Shown: positions 37,435 to 51,950 of the stretch, piece after piece
Layout: every line of letters starts with the position of its first letter
How positions within the stretch are numbered: the stretch's first letter is position 1
Source of the DNA: Pseudanabaena sp. UWO311
GTDB lineage: Bacteria > Cyanobacteriota > Cyanobacteriia > Pseudanabaenales > Pseudanabaenaceae
Direction: 5' to 3'
Length of the DNA: 64,000 nucleotides
Assembly: GCF_006937785.1 (NCBI RefSeq)
Contig: NZ_SJEE01000001.1
Span: forward strand, 186,001 to 250,000
Made by a program: the position numbers and the translations under genes
Notes under the pieces: generated by a model
Databases searched by the model: none
What the model saw: the letters and a program-made list of their open reading frames with translations, nothing else
What the model was told of the DNA's origin: nothing

Positions 37435-37926
37435 TTAATTAATCCGTAAAAAGTCGCTAACGCATAACTCTACTTCAGTAATCGCAAATTCACTAGCATC
37501 AGCTTTAAATTCGGAAACTTTGTAACGCATCGGCCAAGCGCCATTAAATCGAAACCTTGCTTTTTCTGTAGCAGATTGGTCATAAACAGTAATGTCCCCA
37601 TCTCGGAGTTGTTGCGCCCAGTTACCATCTTCCACTGCTTTTAACCATTTCCACATGGTCATGGAAATATTCAGCCCTTGTTTGAGAGTAATATTCTCGC
37701 TTTTGACATTTCCTGGAAGCTTTGTGCGGATAACCCGTCCTTTTGTCGAACCACTCCTCCCCCATACTTGCGGAGTAACTTCAACAATTTCAATTGCTTC
37801 TTGACTTCGCGACAATCCGCTACATTCCATAAAGTAGCCATCAATTTTTTCTAGACTACCTTGTAAAGTAATTTCTACATAAAATCTAGACTTAGCTAAA
37901 AATTCTATTTGCTGTTCGTCTGCCAT
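37435..37926 (-). CDS. Tail-tube-like protein 3 (gp19 family)
   Basis: A 163-residue protein of the T4 gp19-like tube family. Family features are the N-terminal SRFYVEITLQGSLEKIDGYFMECSGLS (seen in parts), the central LKQGLNISMTMWKWLKAVEDG and the C-terminal ARFRFNGAWPMRYKVSEFKADASEFAITEVEL. The ATG at 37926 is chosen because AAGGTGA precedes it, although the frame opens six codons earlier. It is the most divergent of the three tube paralogues and probably fills the junction between tube and spike or baseplate, by analogy with the secondary tube proteins of other injection systems. Confidence 0.88.
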   Translation of the reverse strand: MADEQQIEFLAKSRFYVEITLQGSLEKIDGYFMECSGLSRSQEAIEIVEVTPQVWGRSGSTKGRVIRTKLPGNVKSENITLKQGLNISMTMWKWLKAVEDGNWAQQLRDGDITVYDQSATEKARFRFNGAWPMRYKVSEFKADASEFAITEVELCVSDFLRIN

Positions 37927-37985
37927 CAAATCACCTTCTTGCAAATTTTAGTATGAGTGGTGCTGAGCACCACTCACAACTCTTC

Positions 37986-38459
37986 TTAAGTTTTGCGGTG
38001 CAAAGTCTCATATACAAATTCAATTGTCTCAGTGGCTAGTCCTTCAGAACCAGCTTCTAGCTTAATTGATTTATAGCTAGAAGGCATAACCCCAGTCACT
38101 TCCCAAGTAGCAGCAGCTTCGCCGCCCTGATTGTAAAGAGTGATTGTGCCAGTTTTGCGCTCGCCTTTGGTTTGAGTTCCACCACCTGCGAACGGTTCGG
38201 AATGTGAGGAACTATACCATTTGATTAAGCGATCGTCTCCAACGGTACAGACAAACTCAACAGTAAGCTTACTGTTAGTTGCACCTGTAACAGTAGCTTG
38301 AATTACTGATGCACCCTTTTTTGTTACTCCATAGGACTTGCTATCTCCAGCTGTTTGGAGAGTGGAACCAATACCACTGACTTTTTTTACAACCAAGTCC
38401 TCCAGCCCCGTTAAGCTAAAGTAATATTTAGAAGAGGCTAAAATTTCACCTGCTGCCAT
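37986..38459 (-). CDS. Tail-tube protein 2 (gp19 family)
   Basis: A 157-residue gp19-like tube protein, equal in length to the neighbour upstream. Recognisable parts are SKYYFSLTGLEDLVVKKVSGIG, KLTVEFVCTVGDDRLIKWYSS, GTITLYNQGGEAAATWEV and the ending PSSYKSIKLEAGSEGLATETIEFVYE. The hydrophobic/polar alternation fits the beta-barrel that stacks into the inner tube. It sits 49 bp after tube 1 and 42 bp before the spacer of tube 3. Which of the three builds the main tube cannot be told from sequence. Confidence 0.88.
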   Translation of the reverse strand: MAAGEILASSKYYFSLTGLEDLVVKKVSGIGSTLQTAGDSKSYGVTKKGASVIQATVTGATNSKLTVEFVCTVGDDRLIKWYSSSHSEPFAGGGTQTKGERKTGTITLYNQGGEAAATWEVTGVMPSSYKSIKLEAGSEGLATETIEFVYETLHRKT

Positions 38460-38508
38460 ATTTTTGTGCCCTCAAAATTTTGATAATGCGATAAACATGT
38501 GAGCGAAT

Positions 38509-38982
38509 CTACTTCACTCGATTGATTTGCTCAGCGATAATTTCATAGGTTTCAACAGCCAAATCTTTGCTTTCAGAGCTGAAATCACTTACTTTATAAG
38601 ACTTAGGCCAACAGTTGATAAGATCCCAACGAATTACCTCATTATCGCCACTATCATATGCAGTGATTGAACCATTCTTCCGATTTGCTGCCCATTCCCC
38701 TTTGCCTCCTTCGCTTTTAGGCATAACAGCTAGGAACCAATTATAAAATGCCATGTCTCCTTCGGCGACATAGACTTCAATGGTGACATTGGGGTTTTCT
38801 TCAAAACCTGCCGATGTACTTTGCCAAATAGTTTTGCCGCCTTTGGTGGATGCTAGTGGCTTTTCATGTCCTGCGGTTTGACCCGTAAAAGTAACTTCAG
38901 AGACACTTTTAATTAGTTTTTCTTCCAACCCAGCAAATTCTACATAGTATCGACTAGTAGGAATTGGTTTAAGTTCTGCCAT
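38509..38982 (-). CDS. Tail-tube protein 1 (gp19 family)
   Basis: A 157-residue gp19-like tube protein, first tube gene after the sheath. It shows TSRYYVEFAGLEEKLIKSVSEV, GHEKPLASTKGGKTIWQS, NVTIEVYVAEGDMAFYNWFLAVMP (seen in parts) and the typical C-terminus IRWDLINCWPKSYKVSDFSSESKDLAVETYEI. AAGGAGGAA stands just before the ATG (38984-38994 on the minus strand), a strong ribosome-binding site that suits a highly expressed structural protein. It follows the sheath by 168 bp with a hairpin between. Confidence 0.9.
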   Translation of the reverse strand: MAELKPIPTSRYYVEFAGLEEKLIKSVSEVTFTGQTAGHEKPLASTKGGKTIWQSTSAGFEENPNVTIEVYVAEGDMAFYNWFLAVMPKSEGGKGEWAANRKNGSITAYDSGDNEVIRWDLINCWPKSYKVSDFSSESKDLAVETYEIIAEQINRVK

Positions 38983-39109
38983 TCTTCCTCCTTGAAAGCT
39001 GATTTACAGGTTTGCGATGATAAATAACTATTTTAAAATCTAAAGCTATCAATCGGTAAGATTCACAGCATAAATCTTAAAATAGGGATGAATAATTTTA
39101 GGGATTTAT

Positions 39110-39142
39110 ATAAGAAGAACACCCATAGGGTGTTCTTCTTAT
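39110..39142 (-). terminator. Hairpin between the sheath and tube genes
   Basis: 15-bp arms ATAAGAAGAACACCC and GGGTGTTCTTCTTAT with loop ATA. Located 8 nt after the sheath stop codon. It may uncouple sheath and tube expression or act as an mRNA 3' end with read-through. Confidence 0.7.
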
Positions 39143-39150
39143 AAAAATAG

Positions 39151-40860
39151 TTAACTGTTAGGTGACCATTGGCTGACGCGGAAGATCACAAATTCAGCAG
39201 GACGGACAGGGCAAATACCGACCTCGATGTATAAGCGACCCATCATCATGGTTTCGTGGGTATTTAGAGTGGCATCACATTTGACATAAAACGCTTCTGA
39301 GGAAGCGCCGCCAAATAATGCGCCATTCCGCCAAAGCCCTTCTAGGAAGTTATTGACAGTACGAGATACTCTTGCCCATAGATCTGTGTCGTTGGGTTCA
39401 AAGACAACCCATTGAGTACCTATTTCAATCGATTTCTCGATATAGCTAATCAAGCGGCGGACACTGATGTAGCGCCATTGAATGTTGTCTGGTTCGACCA
39501 AAGTACGTGCGCCCCATACTTTAAAGCCACGATTGTAGCTAGCAAAGTTGCGGATGCAATTGATGCCGATGGGGTTCAGCATTTCTTGCTCACGCATGTT
39601 GGTTTCATAGGCTAAACCAAGCACGCCTCTGGGGGTGTCGTTAGCAGGAGCTTTGAAAATACCGCGTGATTGGTCGGTGCGACACCAAAGACCCATAACA
39701 TGACCACAGGGTGGAACGTAGGATGGTTTGCCGCCCTTACGAGGATTGGCGACTTTGATCCAAGGATAATAGAGAGCGCCAAACATGGAGCGACGGTTGA
39801 ACATGCTCAACCATTGGGCTACGTCTTGAGGCTTTTGCCGATCAGGTGGTACGGCTTCCATGCCTTTGGAGGGCTTGATCGGTGGTGGATCGATTACAGC
39901 CATGCGGAATGCGGGACCGGGAAAAGCGTTTTCGCACATGCTGAGCATCATTTCCATGACACCATGTACTTGATCGATGTCGATGAGTCCTGCTTCATAG
40001 ACGCGCATTAGGTCTGGGCAAGCAATCATCGCTGTTTCATCGATTTCAAACATGCCTTGAATGCCAGTGCGATCGTCTCTCTGTCCTAGCAGGTCACGAG
40101 CAAAGCGATCAACGCTGGAAATGTAAGGAGGAGGTGCAATTTCGTAAGCACCATTGGCGGGACGACGGGAGAGAGGCTGTCCGCTAGTGGAGATGTCAGC
40201 GATGGTGACATATTCTGAATCAGCGATCGCAGTTACAACATAGTCAGCAACATCTGTAGCTACCTGTGGATTCATCGAGACATGCTCGTATTTTTCCAGT
40301 TCTTGCCCACCTTGGACAACGACTACGTTGAAAAATTCACCAGTATTTAGGGGTGGCTCGGCATCGGCAGGAGCATCTTCAGGCAAAGGTTTGGGAGTGC
40401 TTTCTTGAATGATGACCTTGATGCGATCGCCTGTTGAAGGTAACGCTAACTGGCTCTCAGAAGCTGCGGCTGGCTTGATGTTAAACATCAAGGTAGGCTT
40501 GTTGTTCGATGTGCCAATGCGAAGTGCAGTTGCCTCAGGGGCTGGAGGCTCAGATCCAGGAAGTCTAGTGCCAATGCTTGTTACCCAGCAGCGTCCCCCG
40601 CCATTAACAAACCAACCATTAACTGCGAAGGGCAAGTAAGCATCAAAGTCGGTGTATCCATCCGAGCCTGGGGCTGCGAAATATTCGCGATATTGATCCC
40701 AAGATGTAACCATCATTGGTTTGAAAAGATCAGCATCACCGCGTACGTCTTCGGTAAATCCGATAAAACCTGCCACACTGAGGCTGATGCCTTCAATGGG
40801 ACGACTGCCTTTATCAACCTCTTCGACGTATACGCCCGGGGCGAAGTAGTCTAGTGCCAT
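39151..40860 (-). CDS. Contractile tail sheath protein
   Basis: A 569-residue sheath subunit, the signature protein of contractile injection systems and myophage tails. The N-terminus ALDYFAPGVYVEEVDKGSRPIEG and VAGFIGFTEDVRGD are diagnostic. The C-terminal domain has INCIRNFASYNRGFKVWGARTLVEP, WRYISVRRLISYIEKSIEIGTQWVVFEPND and LWRNGALFGG (all seen in parts), which form the conserved sheath core. ATG 40860 gives the standard MALDYFAPGVYVEEV start. The frame continues 17 codons further through a small palindrome at 40878-40893. In the cell the sheath surrounds the tube and contracts to fire it. Sheath and tubes share a strand, in the usual order. Confidence 0.95.
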   Translation of the reverse strand: MALDYFAPGVYVEEVDKGSRPIEGISLSVAGFIGFTEDVRGDADLFKPMMVTSWDQYREYFAAPGSDGYTDFDAYLPFAVNGWFVNGGGRCWVTSIGTRLPGSEPPAPEATALRIGTSNNKPTLMFNIKPAAASESQLALPSTGDRIKVIIQESTPKPLPEDAPADAEPPLNTGEFFNVVVVQGGQELEKYEHVSMNPQVATDVADYVVTAIADSEYVTIADISTSGQPLSRRPANGAYEIAPPPYISSVDRFARDLLGQRDDRTGIQGMFEIDETAMIACPDLMRVYEAGLIDIDQVHGVMEMMLSMCENAFPGPAFRMAVIDPPPIKPSKGMEAVPPDRQKPQDVAQWLSMFNRRSMFGALYYPWIKVANPRKGGKPSYVPPCGHVMGLWCRTDQSRGIFKAPANDTPRGVLGLAYETNMREQEMLNPIGINCIRNFASYNRGFKVWGARTLVEPDNIQWRYISVRRLISYIEKSIEIGTQWVVFEPNDTDLWARVSRTVNNFLEGLWRNGALFGGASSEAFYVKCDATLNTHETMMMGRLYIEVGICPVRPAEFVIFRVSQWSPNS

Positions 40861-40877
40861 ATGCCACCCGTAATAAC

Positions 40878-40938
40878 TATGTCTATAGACATATACAGTA
40901 GGGATAATCAAAATTAAGGGTTATTAGACTTTAGTCTA
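40878..40938. promoter_or_regulatory. Pair of GTCTA palindromes upstream of the sheath gene
   Basis: TATGTCTATAGACATA (40878-40893) is a perfect 16-bp palindrome. TAGACTTTAGTCTA (40925-40938) repeats the GTCTA/TAGAC half-sites. Both lie just upstream of the sheath start in the divergent gap with the response regulator. They could be operators, but no known binding motif is matched. Confidence 0.4.
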
Positions 40939-40989
40939 TACTTCTAAATAAGTAACTCAGCATAATTAAAAAAACAAAGTCAAAGCCTA

Positions 40990-41012
40990 TATCGCCCACT
41001 AAGTGGGCGATA
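40990..41012. other. Palindrome in the divergent injection-system promoter region
   Basis: ATCGCCCACT and AGTGGGCGAT form a perfect stem with a one-base centre. It is placed about midway between the divergent sheath and response-regulator genes, so a terminator role is unlikely unless for upstream noise transcription. Confidence 0.5.
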
Positions 41013-41070
41013 CGGATTTTGGGTCTTTTTAGCTACTTACTTCTAAACAAAGATCTATAGCAAATGATCT

Positions 41071-41769
41071 ATGACAACAACGGCTCAGATAGTATCGGTT
41101 TTATTGGTAGAAGATGACTCCAATTTTCGGCGCGGTTTACATACACTGCTGAGTTTTTATAGTGACGATTGTTATCTACAGTTTAAAATTGTCGGGGAAG
41201 CGACATCTTGTGAGCAAGCAATTAAACTGGTAGTCGAGCAGAAGCCTTCTTTAATTCTTTTAGATGTCAAACTGGATTTAAAATCTCCCGAAGATAGTGG
41301 ACTAAAAGTGCTAATGGATCTCAAAAAATTAGATTATCATGGCAAAGTTTTAATTTTGTCGGCGCATCGTGAAGATGAATTAGTATTTAGAGCAATGCAA
41401 TTGGGAGCAAGAGGATATGTGGCAAAAGATCGCATTGGCAGTCAACTTTATGAGGCAATTTCAACGGTTATGAATGATGAAATTTTCTTGCCGCCTGATA
41501 TTGCCACCAGCTTCTTTCGGATTTTTCATTTTTATGCAGGGCGATCGCTACAAGGGCATTCCACCATCCATCTTACCGAGCGCGAACAGGAGGTATTGAA
41601 CTGGCTAATTAAAGGAGCCTCAAACGAAGATATTTCTCGCTATCTCCATGTGACGATCGCTACCGTCAAAGCGCATCTCACTAGTGTATTTGAGAAGTTA
41701 GGTGTGGCTAGCCGCACTCAGGCAATCGTTAGAGCGTTGAAATTAGGTTTGGTGAGTGGAGATGAGTAA
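41071..41769 (+). CDS. NarL/LuxR-type response regulator linked to the injection system
   Basis: A 232-residue two-component regulator. Receiver domain residues 1-130 carry the acidic pair (VEDDSNFR), the phosphoacceptor Asp in LILLDVKLDL, the Ser/Thr in ILSAHREDE and the Lys in YVAKDRIG. The C-terminal LuxR-type helix-turn-helix (LTEREQEVLNWLIKGASNEDISRYL, TIATVKAHLTSVFEKLGV) binds DNA. It overlaps the following DUF4255 gene by 8 nt, so the two are translationally coupled, and it faces the sheath gene across a 210-bp gap. A cognate kinase is not in the window. It is a strong candidate regulator of the injection genes. Confidence 0.9.
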   Translation: MTTTAQIVSVLLVEDDSNFRRGLHTLLSFYSDDCYLQFKIVGEATSCEQAIKLVVEQKPSLILLDVKLDLKSPEDSGLKVLMDLKKLDYHGKVLILSAHREDELVFRAMQLGARGYVAKDRIGSQLYEAISTVMNDEIFLPPDIATSFFRIFHFYAGRSLQGHSTIHLTEREQEVLNWLIKGASNEDISRYLHVTIATVKAHLTSVFEKLGVASRTQAIVRALKLGLVSGDE

Positions 41770-43024
41770 TTATTTGGCGATCGCGACGGTAACGGCTACA
41801 TTGCAGAGGGTCTTGCAGTCAGTCATTCAACAGGATATCGAAGGGGCACGAGCCACTACCTTAGCGCCTGGAAGTATCTCTACTGGTGCGCCAGAGGTAG
41901 GAGTCAATATCTTTTTATACCAAGTAACCAGCAATCCTTCCTTGGCGAACTATGACTCTACTCCTAATCGCACAAAGGGGAATCCTCTCAATCGTCAAGT
42001 AGCGGTGGATCTTTGCTACATGATGAGTTGTTATGGTAATGATGCTGAACTACAACCACAAAGAGTATTGGGAAGCGTAGTAAGCACCCTTGCAGACAAA
42101 AGAATTCTTACGACAGAAATGATTCGTTCGACATGTAATGACTCAACATTTCCATTCCTATTAGATTCCGATCTGGCTGATCAGATTCAACAGATCAATA
42201 TTGTGCCCATAGATATCTCGTTGGAAGATCTATCTAAGGCTTGGTCAGTATTTTATCAAGTTCCCTATGTGTTATCGGTTGCCTATCGAGCTTGCCTTGT
42301 GGTTGTCGAAGGTCGAGAAAACTTCCAGAGAGCTTTGCCGATTCGCGATGCTTCACCCGTAGGATTGGTTCCATTTCCAGCATCTCCCTATATTGAGAAA
42401 GTTGTGGCTCAGGGTAGCCAATTTGAGCCGATTGTAATCGGTAGTTTGATGATCATTCGTGGGCGATCTCTCCAGAGTCAGACTGTAGAAATCCATGTCG
42501 GGGATTTGGTAATTACGCCAACTTCAGTGCAAGATCGCGAAATCACTTTTTCTCTTGCGAATATGTCTTTACCACAAATCCAAGCTGGTGTGCAGAGTTT
42601 GCAAGTCATTCATCGCATTAATAGTACTTCGTCGTTGATCACCAATACGATCGCATCGAATGTGATGCCATTTGTCCTATGTCCGACGGTTGTGAATGTG
42701 ACTGTAACTCAACTAGAAGCGATTGAGGAAGATTTGCGATCGGCAGTGGTGGTGGTGCAGTTAGATGTGCTGGTGAGGGAGAAGCAGAAAGTAGTTTTAG
42801 CTTTGAATGAATGGACTACTGATAGTCCTTCTGTCTATCTATTTGATCGTCCACCTTTACCTCAGACTAGTTCTACAGTCGAGATTCCAATTACGAATGT
42901 TAAGGCTGGTGAGTATTTAGTGCGAATGCGAATTGATGGAGCTGAGAGTAAGCTAGGCGTTGATGACGATCCTGATAGTCCAACTTACAATTGGTACAAC
43001 AGCCCTAAAATCACGATTACGTGA
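41762..43024 (+). CDS. DUF4255 (Pvc16/Afp16-type) cap protein
   Basis: A 420-residue protein whose first about 190 residues match the DUF4255/Pvc16 N-terminal family: NYLAIATVTATLQRVLQ, PEVGVNIFLYQVTSNPSLANYD, RQVAVDLCYMMSCYG and VPYVLSVAYRACLVVVEG (seen in parts). In PVC and Afp particles the related protein ends tube and sheath assembly at the distal cap. The C-terminal half is rich in beta strands (IPT/Ig-like, PYIEKVVAQGSQFEPIVIG), longer than the short form I know. The ATG at 41762 overlaps the response-regulator stop; a GTG two codons upstream is also in frame. It ends before a strong palindrome. Confidence 0.85.
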   Translation: MSNYLAIATVTATLQRVLQSVIQQDIEGARATTLAPGSISTGAPEVGVNIFLYQVTSNPSLANYDSTPNRTKGNPLNRQVAVDLCYMMSCYGNDAELQPQRVLGSVVSTLADKRILTTEMIRSTCNDSTFPFLLDSDLADQIQQINIVPIDISLEDLSKAWSVFYQVPYVLSVAYRACLVVVEGRENFQRALPIRDASPVGLVPFPASPYIEKVVAQGSQFEPIVIGSLMIIRGRSLQSQTVEIHVGDLVITPTSVQDREITFSLANMSLPQIQAGVQSLQVIHRINSTSSLITNTIASNVMPFVLCPTVVNVTVTQLEAIEEDLRSAVVVVQLDVLVREKQKVVLALNEWTTDSPSVYLFDRPPLPQTSSTVEIPITNVKAGEYLVRMRIDGAESKLGVDDDPDSPTYNWYNSPKITIT

Positions 43025-46919: not shown

Positions 46920-47354
46920 CTACGCACCAAGTTCTAAAATATCTGCAAATGGCAGATCTTTAGCAACTTCTATGACAGTGATTTTGCCATTTTCTACTAC
47001 AGTATTGCCCATAATTGTGTCGTGCATTGCTTCAAATTTCGATGCTGCGTCAATAGTGCATTCAAAATGAAGTGTTACATGGTAGAGCTTGCTAATTGCT
47101 TCGCCATCATGCGATCGCTCTACCGTCAGCATATCTACATTTTGCTGATCTTCTGCAATTTGGCGATACCGATCGGCTAACTGTTCAAGGGCGATCGCGA
47201 TCGCGTGTTCTTGGGTTTTACCGTAGGAATTAATGGTGTTTTGGGATGGATCTGGTGATGGGTTTGATAAGTGGCAAAGATAGTAACCGTTATCTTCAAG
47301 GGTTACATTAATGGAAATATTTTCATTAATCAGTTTGGGACTGGTTTCACTCAT
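46920..47354 (-). CDS. Uncharacterised acidic protein
   Basis: A 144-residue acidic protein that I do not recognise. It has a beta-rich start (ISINVTLEDNGYYLCHLS) and a helical middle (AIAIALEQLADRYRQIAED). It ends with a strand-helix part (LYHVTLHFECTIDAASKFEAMHD, GKITVIEVAKDLPFADILELG). ATG 47354 is chosen; a TTG five codons upstream is also open. It lies between the Roco-CHAT gene and the repeat protein, all on one strand, with hairpins on both sides, so it is probably an independent small gene. Confidence 0.55.
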   Translation of the reverse strand: MSETSPKLINENISINVTLEDNGYYLCHLSNPSPDPSQNTINSYGKTQEHAIAIALEQLADRYRQIAEDQQNVDMLTVERSHDGEAISKLYHVTLHFECTIDAASKFEAMHDTIMGNTVVENGKITVIEVAKDLPFADILELGA

Positions 47355-47449: not shown

Positions 47450-50400
47450 TTATTTCTTCAAAAGCTGAGGAGTTGTATATTCCTTAATTCCTGCTAGGCG
47501 AATGGCGTTGCAGCCTAGTTTAAAGGCAAACTCGTAGGGTTCTCCTGCACCGATCGCTGCATAAAAACCAACGGCAAACTCAATGGCGGCGCGATCGCCA
47601 ATAGTTTGACTCATCCCGATTACATATTGAATTTTTTGGCGGATTGCTTCGGCTTGAGTTTCGCTATAGCAAGCATTGAGGACAACGCATTCAATGCGAT
47701 CGCCGAATATATCAAAGAGATCGGCTAGGTCTTCTCCACCAATTAATTTAAATTGTCCATTGATATCTTCAAATACTAATCCATCTTCATCGGCTCCATG
47801 CCCTGAGAAATGAATGATTTGCGGTTTGAAGTCTAGCATGGCTTGCTGGATATCTCTAGGACGAACAGCCACAGCAGTTTTGATGGGTTCTGTGCCATAA
47901 CCTGCAAGACGCAAGCGTTCTTTGATGTCGCGTTCTTCTTGTTGCAGTCGCAAAGAGACGGAATTTTGAGGATTTGCGGCAAGCATGAGGATCGTTTTCA
48001 TGGGTGTAGCCTCGTCTTTTAATTTATTGATTTGTGGTGATGCAGACTCTACGTTTTGATTGAGGCTAGTGTTTTGTATCCCAGTATTTGTGCCTTGGGT
48101 TTTCAAATCACCTGCAATCATCTGTCCTGTTGGTGCGTAGAAGTTATAGGTGTTGCCTCGGCTTTCAGCTTTTTCATTGCGCGACCGTCTATCTTCGATA
48201 CTACTAATGTCATCGCCTATGTAATCAACTCTGATCACTTTTTGACGTAACTCTAGCGATTCATAACCATCCAGTAATTGACGGATATTGATAGTTATGT
48301 TGAGTTTCCCGATAGGATAGTCCTGAATACCCATTGCTTCAAGTCCAAGTAATTCTTGATAGTCGAGGGGTGGATGTTGGAGATGGTTGGGAACGGGAAC
48401 CCATTTAGTGATTTCAAGGTTAGGGAGTGAAGAGTGAATTCTTTTGAAAGTATCGCGAAGGATACCAAGAAATAAGCGGCGAGTTTCTTTGCGTCCGCTA
48501 ATAGTGATAAAGATTTTTTTGTCTTCAGAATCGGCTTTGATACGAGTAATATTATAGATTTCATTGTTTTCTTTGTAATGCAACATTACACCACTGCGCC
48601 AGTAGATTTGATTATGAATTTTTTCATGAGTAAGAACGATAAAGCGGGAAATAATGCTTTCAGGGAGGACTCGGTAATGGTATTGAAATTCGAGGGTTTC
48701 GCCTTGAAGCCTCGTTTCGTCTGGCTGATCTTTGGGTAGAAGTCCTGCGATCAGGAATTGGGGTGGACGATAATCTAGTTCAAAACAAAGCTCAAATTCT
48801 TTCATTAGCCCGATGAGATAGCTATGGCGCTTAGTGGGATAGCGTTCTGGATCGAGGATACGAGTCAGATCAGAAGAGGTAAAGACACCTTTGGTTTTAG
48901 TTTTAAGGATTTCGTCGCTGAGCATGGCATAGATACCTTCTGTCACCCATTGAGGTTTGAGAACATTAGTATCTTTGAGAATGGGATGGTCTCGGAAACT
49001 GAGAACTAAGCCGAGGCGATGTAGAAGGTCGATCAGTTGTTCTTGATTGTGTTCTTCGGGAATTTTATTCTCATTGCAAATGCTGAGATAACGGCTATGA
49101 GTAATAAAGTCTTCGGGCATGGATTCGAGTTGTTGTTTTACTTCAAACCACGAAAGAGGAATGAGATCGTAGACTTCTTTCAGGTTCCCAACTTGCTTTA
49201 TAATTGCAGTGCGAAGATCATCAATGCCAATATTGTCTTGGCAAGAGGTTTCGATTATGTCTTGGATATTGGGATATTTTTCGCGCAGTGCCTTGCGGTT
49301 GATGTCCAGTGGTTGTTCATCTTTTTTATTGCCAACGATAATTACAGGGGACTGTCCACCAAAGCTTTCAATCAGTTTTAGCCAATATTCAATTCGATTT
49401 TCTTCTTCGCTGGTGCGACAGTTGCAGACGAGGAGATAGAGGCTACGTTTGGTTAAGAAGAATTGATGGGTGGCATGATAAATTTCTTGCCCTCCAAAGT
49501 CCCAAACATTGAGTCGAATATCATTGGCATTGATCTTCACATTCCAAGTCTCCACATTAAGACCGTCAGTTTGAGGCTGATTTTTATCAAACTTATTGCG
49601 AAGTAAGCGCTCAATGAGAGATGTTTTGCCTACACTGCCTTGTCCAATGAGTAGGAGTTTAGCTTCATGAAGTGGACGGCTTTTATGAAGCAGACGGAAG
49701 TAATTGAAAATTTTTGCCGCATCTTTTGAATCAAGTACTTCTGGAGAGATCGCAAGAAGATTATTACTCAAGTCGAGTTTTTTTAAGTTAGTTAAACTTT
49801 GAATCCCATCTGGTAGTTTTTTGATTTTGTTGTTTGAGAGATCAAAATAAGTGAGCTTGGTTAAACTAGCTATGTACAAAGGAATTCTTTGGATTTTATT
49901 TTTAGAAACGTTAAATGAAGTTAGATTAGTTAAGTTGAAGATCTCAGATGGTATATCCTGAATCTGGTTATGAGAGAAGTCAAGCAAAGTTAGATTGGTT
50001 AAATTGAAGATCTCAAATGGTATATCCTGAATCTGGTTATGAGAGAGATCAAGCGAAGTTAGATTTTTTAGATTTGAGATCTCAAATGAGAGATGATTAA
50101 TGAAGTTGTTTGACAGATCAAGCGATTTTAGTGATGTTAAGCTTGTGAAACTAGGAATTTTCGAGATATTATTGTTTGAAAGATTAAGCGAAGTTAAGTT
50201 GTTTAGGTTTGAGATCTCAAATGGGATATCATGAATCTGATTATGAGAGAGATCAAGCGAAATTAGATTAACTAGGTTGAAGATCTCAGATGAAAGATGG
50301 TTAATAAAGTTGTTTGACAGGTCAATCGATTTTAGTGATGTTAAGCTTGTGAAACTAGGAATTTTTGAGATATTGTTGCTTGAGAGGTTGAGCGAAATAA

Positions 50401-50536
50401 GCTCTGCTAAGAAAACTATATTCGCAGGAATTTCAAGCAATCCCATGTCTGATAGGTCTAGTTCCTTTACATCGCTGCGGTATTTCCCACAGTGATCTAT
50501 AAATTTTTCTAGTGATCCAATTTGATCCCATCTCAT
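47450..50536 (-). CDS. Roco GTPase (LRR-ROC-COR) fused to a CHAT protease domain
   Basis: A 1028-residue protein. Residues 1-265 are about ten leucine-rich repeats. Residues 290-450 are a Ras-of-complex GTPase with P-loop GQGSVGKT (298-305), WDFGGQE (345-351) and NKKD (403-406). Residues 455-775 are COR. A linker with NTYNFYAPTGQMIAGD (795-810) leads to a C-terminal CHAT caspase-like domain (845-1028) with the catalytic His in HFSGHGADEDG (H913) and Cys in VVLNACYS (C956). By family knowledge Roco proteins are nucleotide-driven switches and CHAT is a protease used in cell-death and defence systems. The fusion suggests GTP-controlled proteolysis. Its substrate and neighbours are unknown. Confidence 0.93.
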   Translation of the reverse strand: MRWDQIGSLEKFIDHCGKYRSDVKELDLSDMGLLEIPANIVFLAELISLNLSSNNISKIPSFTSLTSLKSIDLSNNFINHLSSEIFNLVNLISLDLSHNQIHDIPFEISNLNNLTSLNLSNNNISKIPSFTSLTSLKSLDLSNNFINHLSFEISNLKNLTSLDLSHNQIQDIPFEIFNLTNLTLLDFSHNQIQDIPSEIFNLTNLTSFNVSKNKIQRIPLYIASLTKLTYFDLSNNKIKKLPDGIQSLTNLKKLDLSNNLLAISPEVLDSKDAAKIFNYFRLLHKSRPLHEAKLLLIGQGSVGKTSLIERLLRNKFDKNQPQTDGLNVETWNVKINANDIRLNVWDFGGQEIYHATHQFFLTKRSLYLLVCNCRTSEEENRIEYWLKLIESFGGQSPVIIVGNKKDEQPLDINRKALREKYPNIQDIIETSCQDNIGIDDLRTAIIKQVGNLKEVYDLIPLSWFEVKQQLESMPEDFITHSRYLSICNENKIPEEHNQEQLIDLLHRLGLVLSFRDHPILKDTNVLKPQWVTEGIYAMLSDEILKTKTKGVFTSSDLTRILDPERYPTKRHSYLIGLMKEFELCFELDYRPPQFLIAGLLPKDQPDETRLQGETLEFQYHYRVLPESIISRFIVLTHEKIHNQIYWRSGVMLHYKENNEIYNITRIKADSEDKKIFITISGRKETRRLFLGILRDTFKRIHSSLPNLEITKWVPVPNHLQHPPLDYQELLGLEAMGIQDYPIGKLNITINIRQLLDGYESLELRQKVIRVDYIGDDISSIEDRRSRNEKAESRGNTYNFYAPTGQMIAGDLKTQGTNTGIQNTSLNQNVESASPQINKLKDEATPMKTILMLAANPQNSVSLRLQQEERDIKERLRLAGYGTEPIKTAVAVRPRDIQQAMLDFKPQIIHFSGHGADEDGLVFEDINGQFKLIGGEDLADLFDIFGDRIECVVLNACYSETQAEAIRQKIQYVIGMSQTIGDRAAIEFAVGFYAAIGAGEPYEFAFKLGCNAIRLAGIKEYTTPQLLKK
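49780..50420 (-). repeat. Near-identical tandem DNA repeats coding the Roco LRRs
   Basis: Segments with AAGATCTCAxATGxTATATCCTGAATCTG and GTTTGACAGATCAAGCGATTTTAG recur several times, with 69-bp spacing (23 codons) and a higher-order unit of about 138 bp. Such similarity at DNA level suggests recent copying. Confidence 0.7.
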
Positions 50537-51065: not shown

Positions 51066-51401
51066 CTATCCAACGGCAAAATCTGTAAACTGGCGCATAT
51101 AGCTTGAATGAAAACCATTAACGATATTCTGCTTAGGAATCCCCATCTCCGCAAGCCTAAGAGAAATATCAAATTCTGTTCCATTATGTTGCACCCAAAT
51201 TTTTCCATCCTTGATATCTAAATGCACCACACAGCCATAGATACGACGATGATTGCGCCAACCAACATGGACTAATTGATAATGATCGCGTTCTACATCA
51301 AAAATCAACTGCGACTCAACCTCACCATTTGCCGAACCATAACTTGCCAACTCCGTCAGCAAATCTTGAATCTTTTGCCGATACTCATCTAGTTTTGCCA
51401 T
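51066..51401 (-). CDS. xisI: XisI family protein (fdxN excision controlling factor)
   Basis: A 111-residue protein of the XisI family. Diagnostic segments are KLDEYRQKIQDLLTELASY, ESQLIFDVERDHYQLVHVGW, RIYGCVVHLDIKDGKIWVQHNGTE and IVNGFHSSYMRQFTDFAVG. XisH and XisI were first described as needed for excision of the Nostoc fdxN element, but pairs are widespread in cyanobacteria without that element and their general role is unclear. Its start overlaps the xisH end by 13 nt, so the two are translationally coupled. Confidence 0.92.
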   Translation of the reverse strand: MAKLDEYRQKIQDLLTELASYGSANGEVESQLIFDVERDHYQLVHVGWRNHRRIYGCVVHLDIKDGKIWVQHNGTEFDISLRLAEMGIPKQNIVNGFHSSYMRQFTDFAVG

Positions 51402-51805
51402 TTTATAATCTCCTGCTGCTCTGGCATATAAACCACTAGTTTTAGTTGATACTGTTCAATTGTAGTTTGCACAAAAGGTAATTGAAAAAAAGAATCATAA
51501 GCACTTAATGGAATAGCTAAATACAGTGTATATTCTGGATACTGCCCCTGCATTAATAGACGATAGTTGAGATACTGCCCCAACGCTGTATGAAATTCCG
51601 ACACAGCCGATCCACTAAGAAAGCTTTTTATTTCTACGGCAATTTTTTCGTTTCTGCGCTCTGCGGCAATTATTCGCTCTGCCCCCAAATCCACATACAA
51701 AGAGCCCAATCCAAACTCTAGAGCCAGAGGATCGTGAGTTATCTGCCAATTGTCTCTTTCTAAAGCTATTTTGACAGCATCATGAAAAATATCGCGTGCA
51801 GACAT
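51389..51805 (-). CDS. xisH: XisH family protein (PD-(D/E)xK-like)
   Basis: A 138-residue XisH protein: SARDIFHDAVKIALERDNWQITHDPLAL (seen in parts), YVDLGAERIIAAERRNEKIAVEIKSF and SAVSEFHTALGQYLNYRLLM. The D..E-x-K arrangement (DLGAERIIAAE, VEIKSF) is that of a restriction-endonuclease-like fold. ATG 51805 was chosen because the family starts MSARDIFH; the frame is open 18 codons further but overlaps the small upstream gene. It is the second cistron of a three-gene unit with the small upstream protein and XisI. Confidence 0.92.
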   Translation of the reverse strand: MSARDIFHDAVKIALERDNWQITHDPLALEFGLGSLYVDLGAERIIAAERRNEKIAVEIKSFLSGSAVSEFHTALGQYLNYRLLMQGQYPEYTLYLAIPLSAYDSFFQLPFVQTTIEQYQLKLVVYMPEQQEIIKWQN

Positions 51806-51809
51806 ATGA

Positions 51810-51950
51810 TTATTGTGGACTCTCTGATTCCTGATTAACTTGGCGATCGCCCAACTCAAACGTCAGAAAATCAATAAAGTGTAGTACCTGCTGCTGTTGC
51901 GCAGTTGGCAATTTCTGCATTTTACTCAAAGCCTTTTCTAATATCGTCAT
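51810..51950 (-). CDS. Small DUF2281/VapB-like protein upstream of xisH
   Basis: A 46-residue frame, MTILEKALSKMQKLPTAQQQ then QVLHFIDFLTFELGD and a polar tail. The ILEKALSKMQKLPTxQQQQVLHFIDFL pattern resembles short DUF2281/antitoxin-type proteins that often stand in front of toxin or nuclease genes. GCAGGAGGA lies ten bases before the ATG, the best ribosome-binding site in this stretch. The stop codon is 4 nt before the xisH start, so the three genes probably form one operon. It could be an antitoxin-like partner of XisH; that is inference. Confidence 0.7.
   Translation of the reverse strand: MTILEKALSKMQKLPTAQQQQVLHFIDFLTFELGDRQVNQESESPQ

Follow-up and report, generated by a model that had tools for sequence, protein, structure and literature searches.

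Roco proteins have been studied largely owing to LRRK2 in Parkinson's disease, and to our knowledge what the bacterial members of the family do is mostly open. For prokaryotes, Kaur et al. (2021) described Roco AP-GTPases with COR and rapidly evolving LRRs, whose variable C-terminal domains number at least 24, TIR, caspase, and EADs among them, and of which a genome has several paralogues (PMC8195603). The best solved relatives of the LRR-Roc-COR part of the protein described here are the CtRoco entries 6hlu ("Rab family protein") and 8r4b, and with GTP CtRoco opens and turns monomeric (PMC11052575). For the CHAT part, the closest system is the SAVED-CHAT protease (PDB code: 8tl0), which is regulated by a SAVED domain that senses cyclic oligoadenylates (PMC11417357), whereas in the present gene a GTPase takes that position. 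Also, in the bacterial amyloid (BASS) NLR signalosomes a short shared motif links receptor and effector, and such motifs are found with CHAT and TIR domains as well (PMC7889193).

The gene compared here with these systems lies in the window, i.e., the whole stretch of 64,000 nucleotides that was analyzed, and presents the following features together with its two flanking reading frames.

47450..50536, minus strand: whole gene, LRR-Roc-COR-linker-CHAT, 1028 aa, ATG start, without internal stop
49733..50476, minus strand: leucine-rich repeats (putative sensor), residues 21-268, Pfam LRR_4/LRR_8
49172..49678, minus strand: Roc GTPase domain, residues 287-455, P-loop K304, from Pfam Roc and motifs
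48266..49159, minus strand: COR-A and COR-B, residues 460-757, from Pfam; nearest solved structures 6hlu and 8r4b
48002..48241, minus strand: linker between COR-B and CHAT, residues 766-845 (80 residues)
48071..48154, minus strand: NTYNFYAPTGQMIAGDLKTQGTNTGIQN motif in the linker, residues 795-822, short strands predicted with low confidence
47453..48001, minus strand: short CHAT protease domain (predicted), residues 846-1028, from an internal Met; Pfam CHAT, 8tl0 match
47798..47800, minus strand: codon of the predicted catalytic His913, CHAT motif HFSGHG
47669..47671, minus strand: codon of the predicted catalytic Cys956, CHAT motif LNACYS
46920..47354, minus strand: downstream gene, 144 aa from the first ATG, which marks the syntenic locus in L031
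50607..50990, minus strand: orphan LRR open reading frame with a Roco-like N terminus, directly upstream of the Roco gene

The preliminary description had placed LRR, Roc, COR, and CHAT in one chain, and this holds: a single open reading frame of 1028 residues contains LRR, Roc, COR-A, COR-B, and CHAT, every one above its Pfam cut-off. The whole-protein E-values are 2.6e-37 for LRR_4, 4.5e-33 for Roc (residues 293-406), 1.1e-41 for COR-A (460-600), 5.7e-35 for COR-B (613-757), and 1.9e-8 for CHAT (PF12770, 34.5 bits against a cut-off of 24, residues 843-998), and the PADLOC model "chat" matches the protein at 8.2e-15. The GTPase motifs are intact, being the P-loop GQGSVGKT (K304), DFGGQE (346), and NKKD (403). 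Having both P-loop and DxGGQ in its Roc domain, and COR behind it, the protein is placed among the Rocos, as the PF12770 profile and the motifs around H913 and C956 place its C-terminal part among the CHAT domains. The match to 6hlu (phmmer, 4e-125) covers residues 41-766 and stops there; nothing in CtRoco pairs with the linker or the CHAT domain. With its LRR, Roc, and COR and its C-terminal effector, the gene resembles the AP-GTPases of Kaur et al. and, given that variable tails including caspase are described for them, the fusion belongs to a described kind, although the main text of that article does not use the word CHAT and whether its "caspase" covers CHAT cannot be told from it (PMC8195603).

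A COR-A search of 386 cyanobacterial genomes gave 85 places in 50 genomes, 82 of which were read (80 stretches, one of them with two places, plus the window; the other three include two fragments). CHAT is present in 5 of these 82, distributed over three genomes: two in the window genome, two in G193, and one long CHAT in G376. The long CHAT of L121 (Pfam 9.4e-36) is of another family and represents a separate fusion. Within the genus of the window, 26 genomes were searched with CHAT, and a Roc-COR profile then singled out at least ten distinct Roco-CHAT genes, which are spread over 8 of these genomes; ten is a lower bound because the Roc-COR profile was applied to the matches assigned a locus and not to the remaining CHAT matches (at most 53% identical to the query). 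Thus, at least nine further genes carry the fusion, and of the two findings that would have refuted the preliminary description, a lack of such homologues and a loss of the CHAT catalytic residues (judged here by alignment), neither applies. In some relatives the short CHAT domain is instead N-terminal and other sequence follows, as in L070 (3629-4900), where it is joined to a Shedu C-terminal domain (SduA_C). Judged by eye, the protein encoded at L209 (1471-3546) is made of pentapeptide repeats and ends in a CHAT-like domain.

The tail of the Roco core was compared in 114 distinct proteins, for which the sequence past COR-B was put into 13 classes by eye, by clustering, and by Pfam on representatives. 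As in AP-GTPases, a variable C-terminal domain follows a shared LRR-Roc-COR core, being a hydrophobic helical module in 28 proteins, TIR of three types in 22, a two-helix membrane tail in 19, a short motif in 10, a helical EAD-like tail in 8, no tail in 8, a COR extension in 6, short CHAT in 5, other sequence in 5, a second helical type in 2, and long CHAT in 1. On representatives, Pfam confirms TIR in three cases (L064, L136, and L143) and gave no name for the helical classes. In a quick Roc-COR tree of the 114 proteins, which has 33 open forks and several long branches, lacks L220-L225, and does not distinguish gain from loss, the tail class needs 45 changes against a shuffled mean of 77.7 (0 of 200 shuffles as low); tail classes therefore cluster, yet switch often. 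Short CHAT takes four of these changes, even when well-supported branches alone are counted. In the tree, the nearest partner of the window core is L032 (helical module, 96% identity), that of L031 is L039 (helical module), and that of L179 is L175 (membrane tail); L061 and L146 are placed together elsewhere. Moreover, comparison of the window protein with those of L146, L061, and L220 gives identities of 91-92% in CHAT against 35-37% in Roc and 34-35% in COR, the values for L221 being 91%, 55%, and 43%. Effectors on the Roco core are, in short, exchanged.

The occurrence of TIR, membrane, helical, and CHAT tails on related cores (22, 19, 28, and 6 of 114) is the mix expected of immune effectors, and the gene is best read as one for an immune or cell-death sensor, consistent with the conflict role that section 15 of Kaur et al. 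predicts for the Roco family (PMC8195603). A housekeeping regulator, in which CHAT would cleave a regulator of development or division and the Roco switch would time the cleavage, is an unlikely alternative, although CHAT is very common in the window genome (27 matches). In this regard, cyanobacterial HetF-type CHAT proteins may cleave a regulator in development or division. Nonetheless, the patchy presence of the fusion in the genus, the frequent change of tail class, TIR and membrane tails included, and the low LRR identity between the window protein and the nine other Roco-CHATs (37-51%) speak against a housekeeping role.

Regarding the protease itself, the claim that the catalytic His and Cys are intact is borne out by the alignment with the solved CHAT protease 8tl0, to which both HFSGHG (H913) and LNACYS (C956) align. 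All ten Roco-CHAT genes that were compared retain both motifs, and the two residues are invariant across 14 of 14 aligned CHAT domains. The P-loop is likewise found in all ten genes, L220 giving no DxGGQE match. The CHAT part has 8tl0, a SAVED-CHAT protease filament, as its best match by sequence (E 6e-11). For the structural comparison a separate CHAT model was used because the full-length AlphaFold model is usable for the LRR and most of Roc-COR, while its CHAT part is mostly below 50 in ten-residue blocks; the separate model has a mean pLDDT of 64, with 25-34 in the linker, 48-68 in early CHAT, and 74-92 in the remainder. Its best match is again 8tl0 (Foldseek E 3.9e-9; VIA Z 13.2 over 182 residues), well ahead of the second VIA entry, DdvA (Z 8.8), and of separase and the caspases at about Z 7, which with moderate model confidence indicates a caspase-like fold. 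The Craspase caspase regulator (PDB code: 7zoq) and separase share this fold at VIA Z 7.7 and 7.6, values below 8 possibly reflecting a common arrangement only, according to the tool's own note, and their regulators differ. Below 8tl0 the Foldseek matches are mixed: numerous sugar kinases align with a high rmsd, and caspase-4 and caspase-6 do so at 6-7 Å. Finally, the dN/dS of CHAT is 0.10-0.17 in 9 of 9 comparisons, corresponding to purifying selection, and that of the linker is 0.21-0.48.

Some caspase-like domains are inactive, and the protease activity of the window protein is a prediction from its sequence, so that CHAT could conceivably act as an assembly or binding module and not as a protease; the conservation of His and Cys in every Roco-CHAT and every aligned CHAT domain makes this improbable, and we retain the reading as a protease.

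At the DNA level, the window gene is a mosaic of two gene lineages and looks like the product of recombination, which would fit a bacterial immune or cell-death receptor that changes fast. Homology with L032 extends from 50546 to 48240 (88% over 2314 bases). When the stretch between 49700 and 48301 is read in 100-base steps, 12 of 14 are at 93-98% and two at 87-88%; the step spanning the break falls to 72%, and beyond it the similarity is at noise level. This break lies at about residue 766, which is the end of COR-B and about the start of the linker. As a yardstick, the SMC and GH94 genes of the L032 genome are 81% and 84% identical to those of the window genome. A comparison with L031 gives steps of 68-90%, mostly 77-86%, across Roc-COR, and from about 48000, near the internal Met codon of CHAT (48001), steps of 86-100% up to the gene end. 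Past the gene, identity stays at 88-99% as far as 46201, falls to 73-81% in the next four steps, and is 81-93% farther on, the yardstick genes (SMC and GH94) being 91% and 93% identical to those of this genome. High identity to L031 thus starts about the end of the linker, with breakpoints placed to about 100 bases. Based on the identity patterns with both loci, CHAT and the 3′ flank look resident, and Roc-COR with the LRR looks imported from an L032-like source, from which we infer the direction of the exchange. The LRR is just 74% identical to that of L032 in amino acids, and the close match consequently covers Roc-COR better than the sensor.

The orphan LRR reading frame upstream is read, from its similarities, as a putative stub of the replaced Roco gene. 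Its first 46 residues match 74 Roc-COR reading frames (some loci twice), and among the matches listed above 60% identity (25), all align to it at their own start; moreover, its DNA is 82-87% identical to the gene starts of L031, L061, L179, and L039. A stand-alone LRR protein is the alternative for this frame, in line with the similar LRR reading frame upstream of the Roco-CHAT gene in L220. As for the gene itself, a mosaic with a stub alongside is what a chance, non-functional recombination chimera would leave, but the open frame of 1028 codons, the low dN/dS of CHAT, the recurrence of the fusion on separate tree branches, and the full fusion in the syntenic L031 gene make it very improbable that the gene is such a non-functional chance product.

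Concerning the linker, the NTYNFYAPTGQM element is present at residues 795-806, and a NTYNFYAPTGQM...G.N.G.QN version of it lies between COR-B and CHAT in 9 of 10 short-CHAT Rocos, the sole exception being L225, which also has a stop in its CHAT part. The preliminary description took the element as one often found before CHAT or EAD-type modules. Within this Roco subfamily it is indeed typical before CHAT, but as a general feature of such modules the claim is supported only in part, since a search of the window genome (G000, 5.2 Mb) with the motif version of its second Roco-CHAT gave three Roco proteins and one weak match, against 27 CHAT matches. The third Roco of this genome carries a version of the motif ahead of a helical module. 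The weak fourth match (E 0.0156) is a NACHT-HEAT protein and was put down to chance.

In relatives, a similar arrangement can be divided between two genes. Rocos with a GD-repeat tail (e.g., HQYGKGDNFAGDEVEGNKTG) have a similar GD motif in a gene shortly downstream, where it mostly sits between a DUF4926-like start and a hydrophobic helical module, the latter being the module fused onto other Rocos. A small DUF6883-like gene often stands between both, the Pfam names being confirmed on L046. The motif-tail loci are L038, L043, L044, L046, L048, L051, L058, L063, and L151; in most of them the DUF6883-like gene comes next, followed by the DUF4926-like/GD/helical gene (L063 excepted). Where a motif-tail locus has room downstream, the pattern detects a GD partner in 8 of 9 cases (the ninth by eye); in the 98 other loci it does so three times, each time next to a tail-less Roco. 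The Fisher value overstates the strength of this contrast because related loci are counted as independent. The pattern occurs in 14 of 2283 reading frames of at least 85 aa in the loci, 13 of these 14 being downstream of a Roco; among the tails themselves it caught 7 of the 9 that belong to the motif class and have room. The remaining two were assigned by eye, as was the class itself, and one EAD-like tail also matched without a partner. In L050 (6300-7151), L054 (6052-6885), and L062 (5905-6720), a tail-less Roco is separated from the DUF4926-like gene by a reading frame for a protein of 270-280 aa that itself ends in the GD motif and is possibly a split-off effector, those of L050 and L062 having no confident Pfam match. 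That one helical module is used both in trans and in cis points to a common coupling role for motif and fusion. The gene in the window is itself fused, no GD-motif partner being found downstream of it, and by analogy it would be the fused form of the motif-coupled system.

Taken jointly, these data allow a tentative scheme, doubtful in our estimation, in which cyanobacterial Rocos would be counterparts of NLRs that run on GTP. The switch would be coupled to its effector by a short beta-type motif located behind COR-B, either in cis, the two being fused, or in trans, the effector being encoded by a neighboring gene that bears a similar motif. Recombination around the motif would exchange the sensor-switch half and the effector half as wholes. 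The window gene would then be the cis form, with CHAT switched on by motif-driven assembly. The BASS receptors differ in being NLRs, and Roco does not appear in the text of that article (PMC7889193). Section 15 of Kaur et al. holds neither a DNA-level exchange nor a motif-coupled two-gene form (PMC8195603), and no report of a motif-coupled Roco operon or mosaic appears in the titles and abstract beginnings of the matches listed from the open-licence literature. What is added here is the exchange of effectors on the tree, the DNA mosaic, and the separate motif-sharing effector gene in relatives.

The neighborhood offers no counterpart, among the loci examined, to the conserved substrate for which the preliminary description had advised a search nearby. 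Two downstream genes are common to the window and the syntenic L031 locus; elsewhere in these loci, the first has one homologue (L172, E 4.6e-46) and the second one marginal match (L108, E 0.00056). For both genes nothing was found above the Pfam cut-off, nor in PADLOC and NCBIfam to E 0.01. Upstream, a XisI/XisH pair occupies window positions 51066-51859, the whole genome having 7 XisI matches. Of the 114 Roco loci, 10 have XisI no farther away than about 2.1 kb. XisHI pairs are near 2 of 3 Rocos of the window genome, two cases that may not be independent because they sit in similar DNA blocks (94.5% over 364 bases); XisH/XisI were accordingly dropped as Roco partners. Also, window positions 37435-43024 hold genes of a contractile injection system: besides those of three gp19-type tube proteins, there are genes for a sheath protein and a Pvc16_N protein, and a response regulator gene separates these two.

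With respect to mechanism, we lean toward a one-protein immune or cell-death receptor, in which a GTP switch sensed through the LRRs would cluster and turn on the protease, and in which the halves would be exchanged near the linker. In this model, the LRR region would sense an invader or stress signal, and binding of GTP by Roc-COR would open the protein and free the linker motif. The opened protomers would then assemble through this motif, bringing the CHAT domains together, and their clustering would turn the protease on. Cleavage of a host or invader protein would finally stop or kill the cell, and recombination in or near the linker, by swapping the sensor-switch half and the effector half, would keep the receptor line variable. 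The title of entry 8tl0 refers to an activated filament, and we take that protease to be switched on by filament formation. The opening by GTP and a filament-type activation of CHAT are thus combined by analogy into what would be one mechanism, although CtRoco is monomeric with GTP and that homologue alone does not suggest assembly upon activation.

Finally, in the window protein a predicted protease occupies the place of the kinase of LRRK2, behind a compact LRR-Roc-COR, and a recent exchange of sensor-switch and effector parts has apparently left its trace in the mosaic gene. Closely related cores with TIR or membrane tails would offer a direct route to what the Roco switch reports, the possible read-outs of a core with a swapped effector being death, cleavage, or NAD loss.
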